Shown here piece after piece: positions 6,274 through 47,776 of a stretch of DNA of 64,000 bases. Made by a program: the position numbers and the translations under genes. How positions within the stretch are numbered: position 1 is the first letter of the stretch; every line of letters starts with the position of its first letter. This DNA comes from Acidimicrobiia bacterium (GTDB lineage Bacteria > Actinomycetota > Acidimicrobiia > IMCC26256 > JAENVU01): the NCBI GenBank assembly GCA_025361725.1, contig JANYJV010000010.1:1-64000 (forward strand). Reading direction: 5' to 3'. A model generated the notes under the pieces. It did no database searches, had not been told where the DNA came from, and worked only from the letters and a program-made list of their open reading frames with translations.

Positions 6274-6363
6274 CGGGTCGCAAGGTCGACGACCCCGACC
6301 ATGCCGAAGTCGATCAGCGCGATCGAGCTGTCGGCGTGCACGAACAAGTTCCCTGGGTGTGGG
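6274..6363 (-). pseudogene. 90-bp fragment of an ABC1/UbiB kinase gene
   Basis: Reverse complement matches 12995-13084 at 87/90 positions; encodes HPGNLFVHADSSIALIDFGMVGVVDLAT. Confidence 0.8.
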
Positions 6364-12008: not shown

Positions 12009-13223
12009 ATGGTACGCCTCGAACCGATCGGGATCGAACGGAGGTCATGGCCGACTGGCCTCGCTGGTCGGCTGGCGATGATGGCGCGCAGGACAACCTG
12101 GTTCCGGGCCGTGCGCCTCGTGTGGTCGCGACCGCGTGGCACCGCGAAGCAGTATCGCCGGCGGCGGCGTGAGATCCTGAGCGCGGTCAGCCGCCATGGC
12201 CTCGGCGTCCTCGTCGGCCCGCGCAGGTTCGGTCGCCTGGTCCCGTTCCATTGGGGTCTCCTCGGTCATCAGCGCCGCGCGGTGCCCTACACCCGGGCGG
12301 AGCACGTACGCCTCGCGGTCGAGGATCTTGGTCCGACCTTCATCAAGATCGGCCAGATCGCGTCGACGCGCGGCGATCTGCTCCCCCCCGAATACCAGCG
12401 CGAACTCGCGCACCTCCAGGACGCCGCGCCCCCCGAGTCGCTCGACTTCATCCGTGAGACGATCGAGGCGGAGCTCGGGCGCCCACCGGAGATGATCTTC
12501 GAGCACTTCGACGCGGTGCCGCTCGCCGCGGCGTCCATCGGCCAGGCCCACGCCGCGACGTTGCCCGACGGTACCGAGGTCGTCGTCAAGATCCGCCGCG
12601 CCGGCGTCGCCGCCCACGTCGAGCGCGACCTCGAGATCCTCGGCCAGCTCGCGGAGACCGCCGCTCGCCGCTGGGACCCCGACGGGCAGTACGACATCCC
12701 GAGCCTCGCCGCCGAGTTCTGCCAGACGCTGCGCCATGAACTCGACTACTGCCGAGAAGCCCAGAACGCCGAGCGCTTCGCCGAGAACTTCGCGGCTGAC
12801 CACAAGACCATCATCCCCCGCGTGTATCCGGAGTTCTCGACGTCGCGGGTTCTCACACTCGAACGGATGCGGGGGATGAACGTCGATGACCTCGCCGTCT
12901 TGGAAGCGGCTGGAATCGACTGTTCCGAGCTCTCGCGGCGTGCCGCGGAAATCACGCTCACGATGGTGTTCGAGCACGGTTTCTTCCATGCCGACCCGCA
13001 CCCCGGGAACTTGTTCGTGCACGCCGACAGCTCGATCGCGCTGATCGACTTCGGCATGGTCGGTGTCGTCGACCTTGCGACCCGCAGAGCCCTCGCCGTT
13101 GCGCTTCTCGCGACCACGACCGGTAATACGGAGCAGCTCATCGACGCGTTCGCAAGCCTGGGTGTCACGAGCCGAAATTTCGAACGCCAGCAACTCGCGA
13201 CCGACCTCGAATGGTCGCGTTGA
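12009..13223 (+). pseudogene. ABC1/UbiB-family atypical kinase, 3' truncated at an IS remnant
   Basis: LGPTFIKIGQIASTRGDLLPPEY...PLAAASIGQAHAATLPDGTEVVVKIRRAG...GFFHADPHPGNLF...IDFGMVG; reading frame leaves kinase similarity near 13210. Confidence 0.8.
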
Positions 13224-21329: not shown

Positions 21330-21390
21330 CCCGGCTCCCCTCGCATCACCTCGACGACCCCAGCCCGTGACCGTACTCCGGACCCTCTCC

Positions 21391-21449
21391 CCCACACTCT
21401 GGCGTCGCTCACGCCGCTCCACGCGGCGCTGGTGACGCCAGACGGTGGG
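21391..21449. repeat. dispersed extragenic palindrome, copy 1
   Basis: CCCACACTCTGGCGTCGCTCACGCCGCTCCACGCGGCGCTGGTGACGCCAGACGGTGGG; about 54/59 identical to 47718-47776; outer arms complementary. Confidence 0.8.
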
Positions 21450-21455
21450 TTTGGG

Positions 21456-22604
21456 TCAGCGAGGTGGGGCGAAGGGTCCGCCGGGGGCGAACGCGATCGC
21501 GGCGAAGCGTTCGGCGATGCGGAGGTAGCCGTCGCCGTCGGGGTGCAAGCCGTCCAGGAGCGTCGGCGCGTCTGCTTCGCCGAAGAGTTCCAGGCCGTCG
21601 ACGTACGTGAGGTTGGCATCGCCGCTCGCCTGCCGGGCCACCACTGCGGCGCCGAGGATTGTGCGGATGCGCCGCAGCGTGAGGCTCGTGGGCACCAGCT
21701 CCTGCGGCCGGTTCGGGACGACCCGAACCCGACCGTCCGGTGTCGTCAGCGTGGGACCGGGATGGTCCTCAACCACCGGACAGACGATCGGTGACACGAC
21801 CACGATCGGCGTATCGGGCAGCTCGTCCCGCAGCGTGTCCATGAAGCCGTGGAACGCCGGAGCGAAGGTCCGATCAGTGAAGCTGTTCGCGTTCACCACG
21901 TTGATTCCGACCTTCAGACTGATGAGGTCTGGACGTTGCTCCACGATCGAGCGGGCGACGAACTGATCCAGATGACACTGGCCGGCAATGCCGAACTGGA
22001 GCAGATCCACCTCGCCGAGCTGGGCCGCCACTGCGGGCCAGATCTCAGTGGGACCGTGCGCCTCGATGCAATGGCTGATCGAACTCCCGTAGTGCGCCCA
22101 GCGGCGTTTCGTACGCGGCGCCGGCTCGACGGCCGAACCGTCGGCAACCCGCAGCGCACGGAGCTGCGTCGCCGCGTTCTGCGGCAGCCAGATCTCGATG
22201 ATCTTCATCGCGTCACCGAGATCGTCGAACCGCAACGCCACCGGCTGGCCCTGCTCGACCTGAAGGTCCAAGGTCACGAGATCGATGACCAGCCGCGTGC
22301 CGGAGGGATCCTCAGTTCTCGCAACGCGCCGACCGTCGACCACGACGTCGAAGTACATCGGACGAACCGGCGCCCCGACCACCGTGAACCCGGTGGTCGC
22401 CGCATCGAGCTCGATCCACGGCGAGTCGGTGCGCAGCATGATTCGCACACCCGACCCGAGCGTGACCATGAAGTGCATGAACACGTCAGGAATTTGCGGA
22501 CGCGTCCACGCGGGAAGCCGGCGAGGCGTGATCCCGGCATCGGCGCGATCGAAGTCCAACGCCCCCACGACCTCAACCGCCCCACCTTCGAACGAGAGCT
22601 CCAC
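21456..22604 (-). CDS. SGNH/GDSL-type hydrolase
   Basis: AHYGSSISHCIEAHGPTEIWPAVAAQLG...GIAGQCHLDQF...GLHPDGDGY; start estimated. Confidence 0.75.
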   Translation of the reverse strand: MELSFEGGAVEVVGALDFDRADAGITPRRLPAWTRPQIPDVFMHFMVTLGSGVRIMLRTDSPWIELDAATTGFTVVGAPVRPMYFDVVVDGRRVARTEDPSGTRLVIDLVTLDLQVEQGQPVALRFDDLGDAMKIIEIWLPQNAATQLRALRVADGSAVEPAPRTKRRWAHYGSSISHCIEAHGPTEIWPAVAAQLGEVDLLQFGIAGQCHLDQFVARSIVEQRPDLISLKVGINVVNANSFTDRTFAPAFHGFMDTLRDELPDTPIVVVSPIVCPVVEDHPGPTLTTPDGRVRVVPNRPQELVPTSLTLRRIRTILGAAVVARQASGDANLTYVDGLELFGEADAPTLLDGLHPDGDGYLRIAERFAAIAFAPGGPFAPPR

Positions 22605-22776
22605 CGCATTTCCTCCATCACTTCTGCGCTGCATCCGCAGCGCGGCGAGTCTCCTACGTACCCGGAATCGCTCGTCCCTCGCTCCCGGGCTACTCCGGGG
22701 ACCGCGCAGGTGCCGGTGCAGCGTACGGCCCAAGAATTCACCCCGGCTACACGCCGCAACCTGCGACGATTCCTGA

Positions 22777-23739
22777 GTGACCAACGAACCCCGACTCACT
22801 CCCGAACCGCAGCGCAGCGAAGGCGAGCCGGTCGGGAGCATCCCGACCAACCACGCGAGCACCCACACCGAGCGGACGACCAGTAGTGAAGTCGGGAGCA
22901 TCCCGACCAACCACGCGAGCACCCACACCGAGCGGACGACCAGAAGTCAAGATACCTATACCCACGGCCATCACGAGTCGGTGTTGCGGAGTCACCGATG
23001 GCGGACGGCGGAGAACTCGGCCGGATACCTGCTCCCCCACCTCACGCCGGGTCAAACGTTGCTCGACGTCGGCTGCGGACCCGGCAACATCACGATGGAC
23101 CTCGCCGCGCTCGTCGCACCCGGCCGGGTTATCGGTATCGACGCGGCTGCCGATGCCATCGACGCCGCGAACCAGGTCAACACGCAACCGGAGCAGGTCA
23201 GCTTCGCGATCGGTGACGTCTACGCGCTGGACGCGCCGGACGCGACCTTCGACGTCGTGCACGCGCATCAGGTGCTCCAACACCTCACCCGACCGGTCGA
23301 CGCGTTGCGCGAGATGCGGCGAGTCCTCCGACCGGGAGGCGTGGTAGCGGCGCGCGACAGCGACTATTCGTGCTTCTCATGGGCGCCGCTCGACCCGCGA
23401 CTCACGCGTTGGAACGAGCTGTATCACGCGCTCGCACGTCACAATCAGGCCGAACCCGACGCCGGTCGTTTCCTGCTCGGGTGGGCGCAGCAGGCCGGAT
23501 TCACCGACGTCGTTGCGAGCAGTTCGAGCTGGACCTACGCAGACCCCGAGTCGCGCGCGTGGTGGGGTGGCCTCTGGGCTGATCGCGTGCAGCAATCATC
23601 CTTCGCCACCCAAGCGCTCGAGCACCGACTCTCCGACGCTGCGGAACTCGCAGACCTCGCGGACGCGTGGCTGAACTGGGGCCAACAGCCCGATGGTTGG
23701 CTGGCCATTCTCCACGGCGAGATCCTCGCCCGCGGCTGA
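22777..23739 (+). CDS. class I SAM-dependent methyltransferase with repeat-derived N-terminal extension
   Basis: TYTHGHHESVLRSHRWRTAENSAGYLLPHLTPGQTLLDVGCGPGNIT; residues before this are repeat-encoded. Confidence 0.85.
   Translation: MTNEPRLTPEPQRSEGEPVGSIPTNHASTHTERTTSSEVGSIPTNHASTHTERTTRSQDTYTHGHHESVLRSHRWRTAENSAGYLLPHLTPGQTLLDVGCGPGNITMDLAALVAPGRVIGIDAAADAIDAANQVNTQPEQVSFAIGDVYALDAPDATFDVVHAHQVLQHLTRPVDALREMRRVLRPGGVVAARDSDYSCFSWAPLDPRLTRWNELYHALARHNQAEPDAGRFLLGWAQQAGFTDVVASSSSWTYADPESRAWWGGLWADRVQQSSFATQALEHRLSDAAELADLADAWLNWGQQPDGWLAILHGEILARG
22831..22950 (+). repeat. 60-bp in-frame tandem repeat (2 units), hairpin-containing repeat family locus A
   Basis: Units 22831-22890 and 22891-22950 match at 58/60; each contains GTCGGGAGCATCCCGAC. 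Confidence 0.95.
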
Positions 23740-23757
23740 CCAGAATCTCCGCGCCGC

Positions 23758-24771
23758 TCAGGCCGGGGTGACCACCGGGAAGCGGATGTACTCGTCGATG
23801 AGAGCGAGACCGAGATGCTCGTCGCGCTCGACACGCTCACCCCGACGCTCGCTCAGGTCAGCACACAAGGTCTCGAGGATGGCATCCAGGGTGAGATCGT
23901 CCGCGTGCGCGCGCCAGGTGTCCCGATCCGCTTCGCTCGCAAAGCAGTAGGCCTTCCACGACACCGACAGCCGCAACTCGGACCAGCGGTAGTCCGCCAA
24001 CACGGCGTCGTCCGGTCCGCGCACGATCCACCGGTCACCTTCCGCTCGGAGACCGCAACCCGGCCGGAGAGGCGGCATCGCATCCGCGCTCACGGGCGAG
24101 ACGCGATCGACACCGTGGAACACCGAGTCGGTGTCCAGCACGAGCGCGGTGTTGGTGTGTATCGGATGGTGGACCATCGGTCCGGCGGGACCATCGGGCC
24201 AGTACGCGAGCGCGCCGCCGACCAGGTCGGAGAACCAGGCAATGCCCGTCGCGATGTGCATCCGGTACTGGTCGAAGAGTCCCGAGTGGTGCATGACGAC
24301 GAGCAGCCACTGCGGAACGGTCTTGCGGCTCACACCACGGAACTCGGGAACGTCGGTATGGACGGCGAGTTCCTGACCCGGGACCATGAGGTTCGCGTAC
24401 GCGATCTGTGGCTCGACGACAGACCTGCCGTGCACCACGCGGGCCGCATCCGCGAGGCGGGATGAGAACAGGAACGGCGCGATGTCCGGCGCGATCAGTT
24501 CGCCGCCGTACGCATACTCCTCGCGGAAGTAGCTGGTGCGGGCCGCGAGGGTACGAGGCGTCTCCGCCGCACGATGCAGTCCGCCGGTGTTGACGAAGTT
24601 CATGACGCTGTCGTGGCGCTGCACGAGCCCGGGACCCTCCGGGATCTCGATCGGCTCGAGTTCGCCGTAGGTGCGATAGCGCCCGAAGTGGATGCACAGA
24701 TCGACGACCGATGCTGCATCCGTGTCGTTCAACAGCGGGTCTATCGGGACGATCGTTCGGGATCCGAGCAC
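23758..24771 (-). CDS. hypothetical protein, possibly 2OG-Fe(II) oxygenase-like
   Basis: 337 aa ORF; VPGQELAVHTDVPEFRG candidate HxD. Confidence 0.55.
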   Translation of the reverse strand: MLGSRTIVPIDPLLNDTDAASVVDLCIHFGRYRTYGELEPIEIPEGPGLVQRHDSVMNFVNTGGLHRAAETPRTLAARTSYFREEYAYGGELIAPDIAPFLFSSRLADAARVVHGRSVVEPQIAYANLMVPGQELAVHTDVPEFRGVSRKTVPQWLLVVMHHSGLFDQYRMHIATGIAWFSDLVGGALAYWPDGPAGPMVHHPIHTNTALVLDTDSVFHGVDRVSPVSADAMPPLRPGCGLRAEGDRWIVRGPDDAVLADYRWSELRLSVSWKAYCFASEADRDTWRAHADDLTLDAILETLCADLSERRGERVERDEHLGLALIDEYIRFPVVTPA

Positions 24772-24804
24772 TGCGGCAGCGTACGACGTTGGTCCGAAGA
24801 CGCG

Positions 24805-25452
24805 CTATAGGGTCAGGACGCCTGCGGCAATCAGAGCGTCGCGCGCTTCGTCGACCCCGCGCGCAATTTCAGCCGTAAACCCCGCGGCGCGCGCACCGTC
24901 GACGTTGATGACGTTGTCGTCCAGAAAGAGGATCCGTTCGGGCGCGAAACCTGCCAACTCCGCAACGCGATCGAAGAGATCTCGGTCGGGTTTCAACACG
25001 CCGAGTTCATGCGAAAGGAATCTGGGATTGAACGTGGCGAAGATCCCCCACTCAGAGAACCGCTCCTCGGTGTGCAACGAGTTCGTATTGCTCAAACAGC
25101 CCACCGCCACCACCTCCGCCACCTCAGCGACCAACGCCTCGGCGCCGGGCATCGGTCCGACCGGCCAGATGCGGAACGCTTCGAGGAACGCATCCGCCGG
25201 GACCGACAGCTTCCACTCGTCGACCATCCCCGCCGCGAACTCGGACGCGGTGCACTCCCCCCGTTCGAACGCACGGACCCACGGACAGGACAGCCAGCGC
25301 TCCCACAACTCGTCGTCGCTGCTGATGCCGGCGAGATCCCGCATGGCACCGACACCACTGAGCTCGATGAGGACACCCCCGAGATCGAAGAGCACGAGAT
25401 CGAACGGCACCGACGTCATCGCCTCATACTGCTGGGCGGGGGTCACGTTCAC
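24805..25452 (-). CDS. HAD-family hydrolase
   Basis: VLFDLGGVLIELSG; GVLKPDRDLFDRVAELAGFAPERILFLDDNVINVDGARAAG. Confidence 0.9.
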   Translation of the reverse strand: MNVTPAQQYEAMTSVPFDLVLFDLGGVLIELSGVGAMRDLAGISSDDELWERWLSCPWVRAFERGECTASEFAAGMVDEWKLSVPADAFLEAFRIWPVGPMPGAEALVAEVAEVVAVGCLSNTNSLHTEERFSEWGIFATFNPRFLSHELGVLKPDRDLFDRVAELAGFAPERILFLDDNVINVDGARAAGFTAEIARGVDEARDALIAAGVLTL

Positions 25453-25509
25453 GAAATCGGATCGAAGACCTCCGAAACGGAACGCACCCCAGCACTAACT
25501 TCGGCGGTC

Positions 25510-26523
25510 ATGGACCTCCCTTGCGTGTGGGACGCACCCCGACCGTACGTGCATCCGCTCACCACTCCCGCCGGCGCGATGCTCAGCGTGGAGGCGCCGG
25601 CGGATCACCCGTGGCATCACGCGCTGTGGTTCACGATCAAGTTCCTGAACGGCGAGAACTTCTGGGAGGAGTACGGCGAGTTCGGCACGCTGCGCACGAT
25701 CGATGTCTCGCCTGTCGAAGGCGGCGTGCGCGCCACCCTCGATTGGATTGCACCCGACGATGCGGAGGTGCGGCTGCACGAGGTACGTACGATCACCACT
25801 CATCGTGTCGACGACGACGCATACGCGATCGACTGGCACGAGTTCCTCACCGTGCCGGCCGACACCGTGCTCGATCGGACTCCGTTCACCAGGTGGGGTG
25901 GCTACGGCGGCCTGACGTTCCGCGGCGCGCCGGACTTCACCGACACCGTGATCCGCCTCGCCGACGGCACCGACCGCGACCGCGCCCTCGGCGACCCCTC
26001 CCCCTGGCTCTCCATCGAAGGCACCCCTCATACTTGGATAGCTTCCGAGCCGCAGCGCAGCGGAGGCGAGCAGGTCGGAAGCATCCCGACCAACCGCGCG
26101 AGCACCGACACCGAGCGGACGACCAGAAATGACGGAGGCGAGCAGGTCGGAAGCATCCCGACCCGCCAACACGCAGCCGACTCGCTCCCGAGCCGCAGCG
26201 CAGCGGAGGCGAGCAGCTCGGAAGGGAGCCCACGAACTCCCCAGGTCCCTCGATCGGCGACCGTACGAGCAGACAAGCAAGCGGGAATCATCATGTTCGA
26301 TCATCCGGACAATCCGCGGTCGCCGTCGCCTTGGTACGCGAGCACGAAGGCGGACACCTACGGCGAGGGATGGGCCAACTTCGTGAACGCAGCGTTCCTG
26401 TGGGACGACCCTCTCACGATCGCCGCGAACGAGGACCTCGACCTCCGGTATCGAGTGATCGTGCACGACGGGCACTGGGACACCGACCGCATCGGCGCCG
26501 AGTACGCCCGGTGGGTCGCCTGA
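25510..26523 (+). CDS. PmoA/DUF6807-like protein carrying an in-frame repeat insertion
   Basis: HPLTTPAGAMLSVEAPADHPWHHALWFTIKFLNGENFWEE; IIMFDHPDNPRSPSPWYAS; interrupted by repeat peptide. Confidence 0.75.
   Translation: MDLPCVWDAPRPYVHPLTTPAGAMLSVEAPADHPWHHALWFTIKFLNGENFWEEYGEFGTLRTIDVSPVEGGVRATLDWIAPDDAEVRLHEVRTITTHRVDDDAYAIDWHEFLTVPADTVLDRTPFTRWGGYGGLTFRGAPDFTDTVIRLADGTDRDRALGDPSPWLSIEGTPHTWIASEPQRSGGEQVGSIPTNRASTDTERTTRNDGGEQVGSIPTRQHAADSLPSRSAAEASSSEGSPRTPQVPRSATVRADKQAGIIMFDHPDNPRSPSPWYASTKADTYGEGWANFVNAAFLWDDPLTIAANEDLDLRYRVIVHDGHWDTDRIGAEYARWVA
26045..26225 (+). repeat. hairpin-containing repeat family locus B (one full and two partial units)
   Basis: CCGAGCCGCAGCGCAGCGGAGGCGAGCAGGTCGGAAGCATCCCGACCAACCGCGCGAGCACCGACACCGAGCGGACGACCAGAAATGA plus partial copies from 26133 and 26189; matches locus A. 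Confidence 0.9.
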
Positions 26524-31074: not shown

Positions 31075-31270
31075 AGAGGCCGATACTCGCGCGCCACTTC
31101 GGCTCGTCCGCTCCGTGGTTGAAAAGCGCGTGCCCTCCCGGACGCTCCCGAGCTGCTCGCTGCGCTCGTTTCGGTTCAGTCTGCTGCGCGAATTCACGCA
31201 CGTCGTCTGCCACGTTGCGTGAAGGGCAACCACCGTGAGAGGCTAATCGTTCCTTGGGAAGGGGTCCTGG

Positions 31271-46860: not shown

Positions 46861-47715
46861 ATGCGCGTATCGATCGGAAACACCCGCCTCTTCGTCGACG
46901 TCGAGGGACTCGGTCTCGTCCCCGACGGCGCGACCATGCGCGCCAAACCGACCCTGATCCTGCTCCACGGCGGTCCCGGGTTCGACCATTCGAGTTTCAA
47001 ACCGCATTGGTCCCAGTTCACCGACATCGCGCAGGTCGTGTACTACGACCATCGGGGCCAAGGTCGCAGCGATCGTTCGGATCCCGAAACGTGGAACCTT
47101 GAGCAATGGGCCGCCGATCTGGTTGCGCTCTGTGACGCGCTCGAGATCGTCGACCCCATCGTTTGCGGCGTGTCATTCGGCGGGATGGTCGCCCTCCAGT
47201 ACCTCGTCGATCACCCGACGCACGCGAGTCGGGTGATCCTCGATTCCACAACGGCCCGCTCTGATCCGGCGCTGATGCTCCCGGTGTTCGAACGACTCGG
47301 CGGCCCGGCCGCACGAGATGCGGCGGAAACGTTCTGGGCCGAACCCACTCCCCAAGCCATGAAGCAATATTTCGAACTCTGCATGCCGCTCTACAGCCGT
47401 ACGACCGCGCCCGACGCCGCCGACCGCATGCACCGCCAGATCGAAGTCGCGAACTACGCCCTGTTCGGCCAGTGGAGTCGAGGCGAACAACGAACCTTCG
47501 ATCTCACCGCTCGCCTCTCCCAGGTGCAACGGCCCGTGTTGCTCCTGGCCGGGGAGGACGATCCGGTCTGTCCCGTCGACGGAGCCGAAGTCATCGCGGC
47601 CGGGATCCCGCACGCACGCTTCGAGCGGTTCGACGACTGCGGCCATGGAGTCTGGCGCGACCAGCCTGACCAGGCCTTCCATCTGATTCGGGATTTCATA
47701 CTCGGCCGAGCCTGA
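46861..47715 (+). CDS. alpha/beta hydrolase (proline-iminopeptidase-like)
   Basis: LILLHGGPGFDHSSFKPHW; YYDHRGQGRSDRSDP; CGVSFGGMVAL. Confidence 0.9.
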   Translation: MRVSIGNTRLFVDVEGLGLVPDGATMRAKPTLILLHGGPGFDHSSFKPHWSQFTDIAQVVYYDHRGQGRSDRSDPETWNLEQWAADLVALCDALEIVDPIVCGVSFGGMVALQYLVDHPTHASRVILDSTTARSDPALMLPVFERLGGPAARDAAETFWAEPTPQAMKQYFELCMPLYSRTTAPDAADRMHRQIEVANYALFGQWSRGEQRTFDLTARLSQVQRPVLLLAGEDDPVCPVDGAEVIAAGIPHARFERFDDCGHGVWRDQPDQAFHLIRDFILGRA

Positions 47716-47717
47716 AC

Positions 47718-47776
47718 CCCACACTCCGGCGTCGCTCAGGCCGACCCAAGCGGCGCTGGTGACGCCAGACGGTGGG
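47718..47776. repeat. dispersed extragenic palindrome, copy 2 (between convergent genes)
   Basis: CCCACACTCCGGCGTCGCTCAGGCCGACCCAAGCGGCGCTGGTGACGCCAGACGGTGGG. Confidence 0.8.

Follow-up and report, generated by a model that had tools for sequence, protein, structure and literature searches.

The window analyzed here is a 64,000-nt stretch of an Acidimicrobiia bacterium (genus JAENVU01; assembly GCA_025361725.1, contig JANYJV010000010.1, positions 1 to 64,000 of the forward strand), in which a short hairpin-bearing repeat is found both inside protein-coding genes and between genes. An earlier sequence-only reading of the window had placed such a repeat in two genes, encoding a methyltransferase and a DUF6807 protein. 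The repeat is indeed present at both sites, in two and three units respectively, while the third DUF6807 unit is an addition and an intergenic unit had been overlooked. The respective features are:

22777-23739, + strand: gene for an S-adenosylmethionine-dependent methyltransferase (Pfam Methyltransf_31/11), with two repeat units at the N-terminus.
22803-22885, + strand: unit 1 of the methyltransferase, consisting of hairpin 1, hairpin 2 and tail, with frame A translation EPQRSEGEPVGSIPTNHASTHTERTTSS (69 bits with model R1).
22885-22945, + strand: unit 2 of the methyltransferase, hairpin-2 part and tail only, frame A, 60 nt (3 x 20) after unit 1.
25510-26523, + strand: DUF6807 gene (Pfam PF14100), in which approximately 73 additional residues separate WLSIEGT from AGIIMFDHP.
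26046-26128, + strand: first DUF6807 unit, frame A EPQRSGGEQVGSIPTNRASTDTERTTRN (72 bits with R1, 80 bits with R2).
26133-26168, + strand: second DUF6807 unit, partial (5' part), frame A, 72 nt (3 x 24) after the first.
26189-26273, + strand: third DUF6807 unit, subtype II (GGAAGGGAGCCC...GGCGACCGTACGAGC), with frame B translation SRSAAEASSSEGSPRTPQVPRSATVRAD (53 bits with R1, 80 bits with R2).
31098-31178, - strand: intergenic unit flanked by divergent genes and lying upstream of a - strand dehydrogenase-like open reading frame (ORF; 57 bits with R1).

The coding-frame profile switches strand across the 31098-31178 unit. It was also observed that the longest ORF of a GDSL-esterase gene (21456-22928, - strand) begins inside the antisense of the methyltransferase repeats. 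The real start of this gene is probably further downstream, and the automatic gene calls in this region may therefore be wrong.

Copies of the repeat were gathered through sequence searches and from the stretches around the matches, in the source metagenome-assembled genome (MAG) G000 (3.53 Mb, 151 contigs, 83.5% complete) and in the congener MAGs G001 and G002 (completeness of the three 83.5, 90, and 68%). A 60-nt unit query returned 30 places in G000 at E<=1, and a 17-nt core with up to 2 mismatches returned 35 matches, while the control with the reversed pattern returned 0. With a sequence-only model at least 78 copies were found in G000, 29 in G002 and 8 in G001, and with a structure-aware model, which scored at most 113 candidates, at least 106, 39, and 9, respectively. 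The proposal that the two loci belong to a larger repeat family was thus borne out, and the matches are not a product of chance. The counts are lower bounds, since the number of scored candidates was limited and several copies lie at contig ends (C45, C67, C89, C90, and C124), where the assembly was probably broken. Outside the genus the sequence-only model gave 0-1 weak matches per genome, and an exact 26-nt pattern run across the named genomes had the congener MAG JAENVU01 as its sole match. The dispersed repeat is essentially restricted to one acidimicrobial genus.

The majority of the copies are intergenic. Among those with orientable neighbors, 22 were sense and 18 antisense to tandem flanking genes, i.e., no strand bias, while 19 were located between convergent and 16 between divergent genes. 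Adjacent units were arranged head-to-tail in 25 cases and as inverted 5'-5' pairs in 15, with no inverted 3'-3' pair. At orthologous intergenic sites the congeners hold units of other subtypes, and thus sites persist while their content turns over. At one locus (L211; G000 C3:3957-4348) three head-to-tail units with longer loops lie approximately 145 nt apart, and the orthologous site in G002 (L229) carries an inverted pair and further units. Two other loci of G000 (L021 and L043, on C123 and C28) lack hairpin 1 and share an upstream GAGTC(A/G)GGGGTCTTTCAGCTCGGGAGC, possibly an alternative 5' module.

Covariation was analyzed on a sequence-only alignment of 124 copies, with shuffled and slid controls. 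Several of the pairs with the highest mutual information were complementary, and they form two hairpins:

Hairpin 1, columns 1-24: C1-G24, G2.A23, A3.G22, G4-C21, C5-G20, C6-G19, G7.A18, N8.N17, A9.G16, G10-C15, C11-G14.
Hairpin 2, columns 27-79: G27-C79, C28-G78, 29-77 and 30-76 (U-A/C-G or G.A/A.G), G31-C75, G32.A74, N33.N73, A34.G72, G35-C71, C36-G70.
Hairpin 2, subtype-specific pairs: 38-69, 39-68, 40-67 in type I and 39-67, 40-66, 41-65 in types II/III, followed by a variable loop.

These hairpins were 89.6% paired and showed 69 compensatory cells; shuffling gave 11.5 +/- 3.0 such cells, and the slid controls gave 2-21. Examples of pair states are CG65/AT7/GC4/TA1 at columns 5-20, CG88/GC10/TA1/AT1 at 28-78 and CG68/GC14/TA12 at 36-70, and compensatory states were found across different loop-subtype backgrounds. 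A 3x3 internal loop of G.A/N.N/A.G flanked by covarying Watson-Crick pairs is common to both hairpins; its G.A/A.G positions are 96-99% conserved in both, and such loops can form on one strand only. The hairpin-2 part, which can occur without hairpin 1, ends in covarying inverted repeats (GCTCG..CGAGC, GGTCG..CGACC, GGCCG..CGGCC). A unit is preceded by CC at -2/-1 and followed by a 3' tail of about 10 nt, whose sequence is approximately AGAANTGACG; position +9 is G in 91% of the copies. The palindrome GGTCGGGA-GCA-TCCCGACC, previously taken as the defining hairpin, was only 64.7% paired and a slide of -1 gave an equally high covariation score. It was rejected as a conserved structure, whereas the two hairpins described above covary strongly.

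Hairpin 1 alone was found as an exact match in other families of the order (six in G043, three each in G051 and G023, two in G025; zero for the reversed control), where it is embedded within other repeats. In another acidimicrobial genus, G034 was observed to carry its own larger hairpin repeats containing hairpin 1 (GAGACGGAGCCTGCGGAGTCGACCAG; L235, L239, L242, and L246).

Regarding the genes, the sequence-only reading was right about in-frame insertion in unrelated genes, but it counted two, while G000 has five unrelated host genes, encoding the methyltransferase, the DUF6807 protein, an acyl-CoA dehydrogenase, a DivIVA-like protein and a membrane protein (L108). For the first three, in-frame insertion is evident against insert-free orthologues; the comparison of orthologues suggested in the sequence-only reading returned methyltransferase and DUF6807 proteins without the segment. 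With methyltransferase orthologues from eleven other genomes, the alignment does not begin until about residue 55 of the window protein (for most of them, about 50-58). Upstream, the DNA of G002 and G000 is similar as far as the start codon (ATG in G002, GTG at 22777 in G000), and compared to G002 the two units stand between the start codon and the conserved YTHGHHES. Since no later in-frame ATG, GTG, or TTG precedes this motif, the insert must be translated if a complete enzyme is made. In the case of DUF6807, eight orthologues align on both sides of the insert and those from five other genera lack it. In G001 this position is occupied by a different unit, read in frame B, and in G002 only GCGAGCGGACGAGCAGAAGTGA is left, which is the 3' end of the repeat (GAGCGGACGAGCAGAAGTGA). 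In an AlphaFold2 model using eight orthologues, of modest overall confidence (58), the insert (residues 176-252) lies between two strands with no predicted secondary structure and a predicted local distance difference test score of 31-35. The acyl-CoA dehydrogenase (L127; Pfam identification) has 15 additional residues, QQLGSIPTHRASTHTERMSRQS, between KAAWLHDH and EAANMAK; in its model (mean 84) they sit at a helix-helix junction of the C-terminal domain, between two long helices, with the lowest confidence at 311-318. The DivIVA-like protein (L092) carries four units in its linker, and in the G002 orthologue this linker holds two units of a different subtype. Finally, the repeat in L108 is antisense and in frame in a large membrane protein, which by inspection only resembles an arabinosyltransferase. 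The inserts are predicted to be loops or disordered, and the best reading is that they are tolerated passengers rather than new functional domains.

It had also been stated that the main unit is read in the same frame at both sites. This applies to the methyltransferase units and the first two DUF6807 units, for which the frame A reading, (E)PQRS(G/E)GE(Q/P)VGSIPT..., is stop-free. It does not extend to the third DUF6807 unit (SRSAAEASSSEGSP...), to the G001 orthologue in frame B or to the antisense L108. Overall, frame A is used on the sense strand in four genes, one of which also uses frame B. Four of five genes sharing one frame is mildly unlikely under six equal frames (about 0.02 by hand arithmetic, after allowing for any frame). 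The preference may reflect the hydrophilic sense frames, the mean hydropathy of the coding copies being -1.1 to -2.0 in sense frames compared to -0.1 to +0.5 in antisense frames. The absence of stop codons was rejected as evidence of coding, because intergenic copies are likewise mostly stop-free (60-86% of the copies in each of the six frames). Informative evidence is the keeping of the frame relative to orthologues, together with unit spacing divisible by three. The latter was found in 6 of 7 neighboring pairs inside genes vs. 4 of 18 outside (one-sided exact test about 0.007 by hand, with pairs within one gene not being independent). Some copies (e.g., L178, L202, and L226) first seemed to be coding, because the same frame is found on both sides of them or they are spanned by an ORF; they are actually located 5' of the likely start of the gene.

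Taken together, the units constitute a dispersed multi-copy family with a covarying structure, which is mainly intergenic, keeps the frame in genes, shows subtype replacement at orthologous sites and occurs in inverted 5'-5' pairs and head-to-tail arrays. We consider it likely that this family is a lineage-specific, non-autonomous interspersed repeat similar to repetitive extragenic palindromes (REP/REPIN), with a unit of about 82 nt plus a 3' tail of about 10 nt, two hairpins on one strand and tolerated coding inserts. We infer that the repeat is mobile. Units would spread as folded single-stranded DNA recognized by an enzyme supplied in trans, and local duplication would add further units. 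The G.A loops formed on one strand, the lack of orientation bias and the inverted pairs fit such single-stranded DNA recognition. The enzyme would not be a recognizable Y1/RAYT transposase of the MAGs, and its gene may be unassembled or lost. Insertions in genes are seen only where the frame is kept, in a terminus, loop or linker, since the repeat is nearly stop-free and its sense-frame peptide is hydrophilic and predicted to be disordered. Several points weigh against this interpretation. No transposition event, target-site duplication or mobilizing gene was found in the incomplete MAGs. Energy-based folding of single-stranded DNA showed no preference for the covarying fold (z about -2.0 to +0.7), although internal loops of this kind may be poorly modeled by it. 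Moreover, the support is comparative, a single alignment served both to derive the structure and to count its pairs, and subtypes may be shuffled by recombination, which would inflate the compensatory counts.

Covarying stems and conserved purine internal loops are also typical of RNA motifs, and tandem G.A pairs exchange with U-A/C-G pairs at columns 29-77/30-76. The repeat could accordingly be a structured RNA acting in transcripts (cis-regulation, mRNA end protection or protein binding), with the hairpins kept by selection on the RNA. However, copies show no orientation preference (the 22 sense, 18 antisense, 19 convergent and 16 divergent cases above), are found both sense and antisense inside ORFs, have no Rfam match and no fixed gene association, which renders this explanation unlikely. 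Similarly improbable is a miniature inverted-repeat transposable element (MITE) belonging to an insertion sequence of DDE or other type and moved through terminal inverted repeats in double-stranded DNA. The covarying inverted ends of the hairpin-2 part and its occurrence without hairpin 1 agree with it, but duplex recognition does not explain G.A mismatches conserved on one strand. In addition, a target duplication was not seen consistently across the compared sites, and no insertion sequence with GCTCG/CGAGC-type ends was met, although no exhaustive search aimed at one was made.

Head-to-tail arrays with near-identical neighbors and the replacement of units at orthologous sites could also arise if GC-rich sequence underwent local tandem duplication, recombination and gene conversion, with no true mobility. 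The copies are, however, spread over dozens of contigs and occur in unrelated genes, and their structure is conserved, which makes this explanation still less probable. The least probable alternative, and in our opinion a very unlikely one, is a selected protein motif (a functional peptide linker) copied between genes, with the DNA repeat being secondary. One frame on one strand is used in four genes, and the coding subtype (CAACCRCGCGAGYACCSACACC) is nearly confined to genes, its best matches all lying in these four genes, with one weaker intergenic match. On the other hand, more than 100 copies exist and most are between genes, coding copies also occur in other frames and in antisense, orthologues manage without the insert, and what is conserved is nucleic-acid pairs.

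Apart from the repeat in question, two further duplications were observed in the window. A second, unrelated 69-nt repeat is located at 21381-21449 and 47708-47776 (87% identical) and is an imperfect palindrome (CTGGCGTC...GACGCCAG). A 90-nt inverted duplication (97% identical) is located at 6274-6363 and 12995-13084. Its 12995 copy is inside a kinase-like reading frame (HADPHPGNLFVHADSSIALIDFGMVG), so the copy at 6274 may represent a fragment of a gene.

The best-known cases of repeats coding in frame for parts of proteins come from Rickettsia and some bacteria rich in REPs, and the actinobacterial case is independent of these. The three sequenced congeners allow one to ask how repeats enter genes, as a single DUF6807 site is seen in all states: empty (other genera), partly filled (G002) and differently filled (G001 and G000). 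The conserved non-canonical loops of one strand are a handle for finding the recognizing protein. Furthermore, the family accounts for unusual hydrophilic segments of predicted proteins and for points at which MAG assemblies are broken.

Concerning known systems, Rfam gave no match in the window at gathering score and none in the five loci at E<=1. The RYYYAAC and GTTRRRY boxes of integron attC sites are absent, the consensus ends GCTCG/CGAGC having no AAC/GTT boxes. With MITEs the repeat shares terminal inverted repeats, i.e., GCTCG/CGAGC and the covarying variants that close the hairpin-2 part. MIRU, which are actinobacterial (mycobacterial) interspersed repeats, and ERIC, which are long imperfect palindromes, are of similar length. 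However, MIRU typically overlap start or stop codons within operons and ERIC is a single imperfect palindrome of about 127 bp in enterobacteria, and these descriptions would set the acidimicrobial repeat apart from both.

Closer similarities exist with REP/REPIN, as short hairpin repeats that are mainly extragenic, with about 100 copies, and form inverted doublets (PMC3733652; PMC3116915); REP doublets are likewise inverted pairs (PMC3116915), and some REP copies are read in frame in proteins (PMC3733652). Known REPs are recognized strand-specifically as folded single strands, and TnpA_REP of E. coli requires stem mismatches or a bulge (PMC8266576), a feature comparable to the mismatched stem on one strand seen here. 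In contrast to REPs, our unit has two hairpins of different size in approximately 82 nt and lacks a GTAG or CGTC tetranucleotide in its flank profiles. No Y1/RAYT transposase (PF01797) was found in G000-G006, which include the three incomplete congener MAGs, while control genomes including E. coli were positive; CGTC families without a dedicated transposase are also known (PMC3733652). The host is actinobacterial, a phylum that is not mentioned in the main text of the REP survey (PMC3733652).

The analogy to the palindromic elements of Rickettsia (RPE-1, RPE-4, and RPE-6), drawn in the sequence-only reading, has gained ground, given the dispersed family, the in-frame copies in unrelated genes and the orthologues without the segment. 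As summarized in the REP survey, which cites the RPE work, those elements are palindromic repeats inserted in frame in unrelated genes (PMC3733652). The likeness is one of pattern. The phylum is different, most of our copies are intergenic, and RPE-4 and RPE-6 are CGTC-tagged (PMC3733652) while the acidimicrobial repeat is not. We found no open-access paper linking Acidimicrobiia or Actinobacteria to such repeats. It is possible, albeit doubtful, that a new class of mobile structured repeat exists in Acidimicrobiia, with a two-hairpin single strand bearing G.A/N.N/A.G loops, an enzyme other than Y1/RAYT, in-frame peptides and a hairpin 1 that other repeats of the order also contain as a module. 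In-frame insertion as a phenomenon is already known, because REPs inside ORFs have been documented in other phyla, with clusters coding for 43-82 aa (PMC3733652). The novelty lies in the repeat family itself, in its two-hairpin anatomy with G.A loops, in the lineage that carries it and in coding sites that form a series of empty, partly filled and differently filled states.

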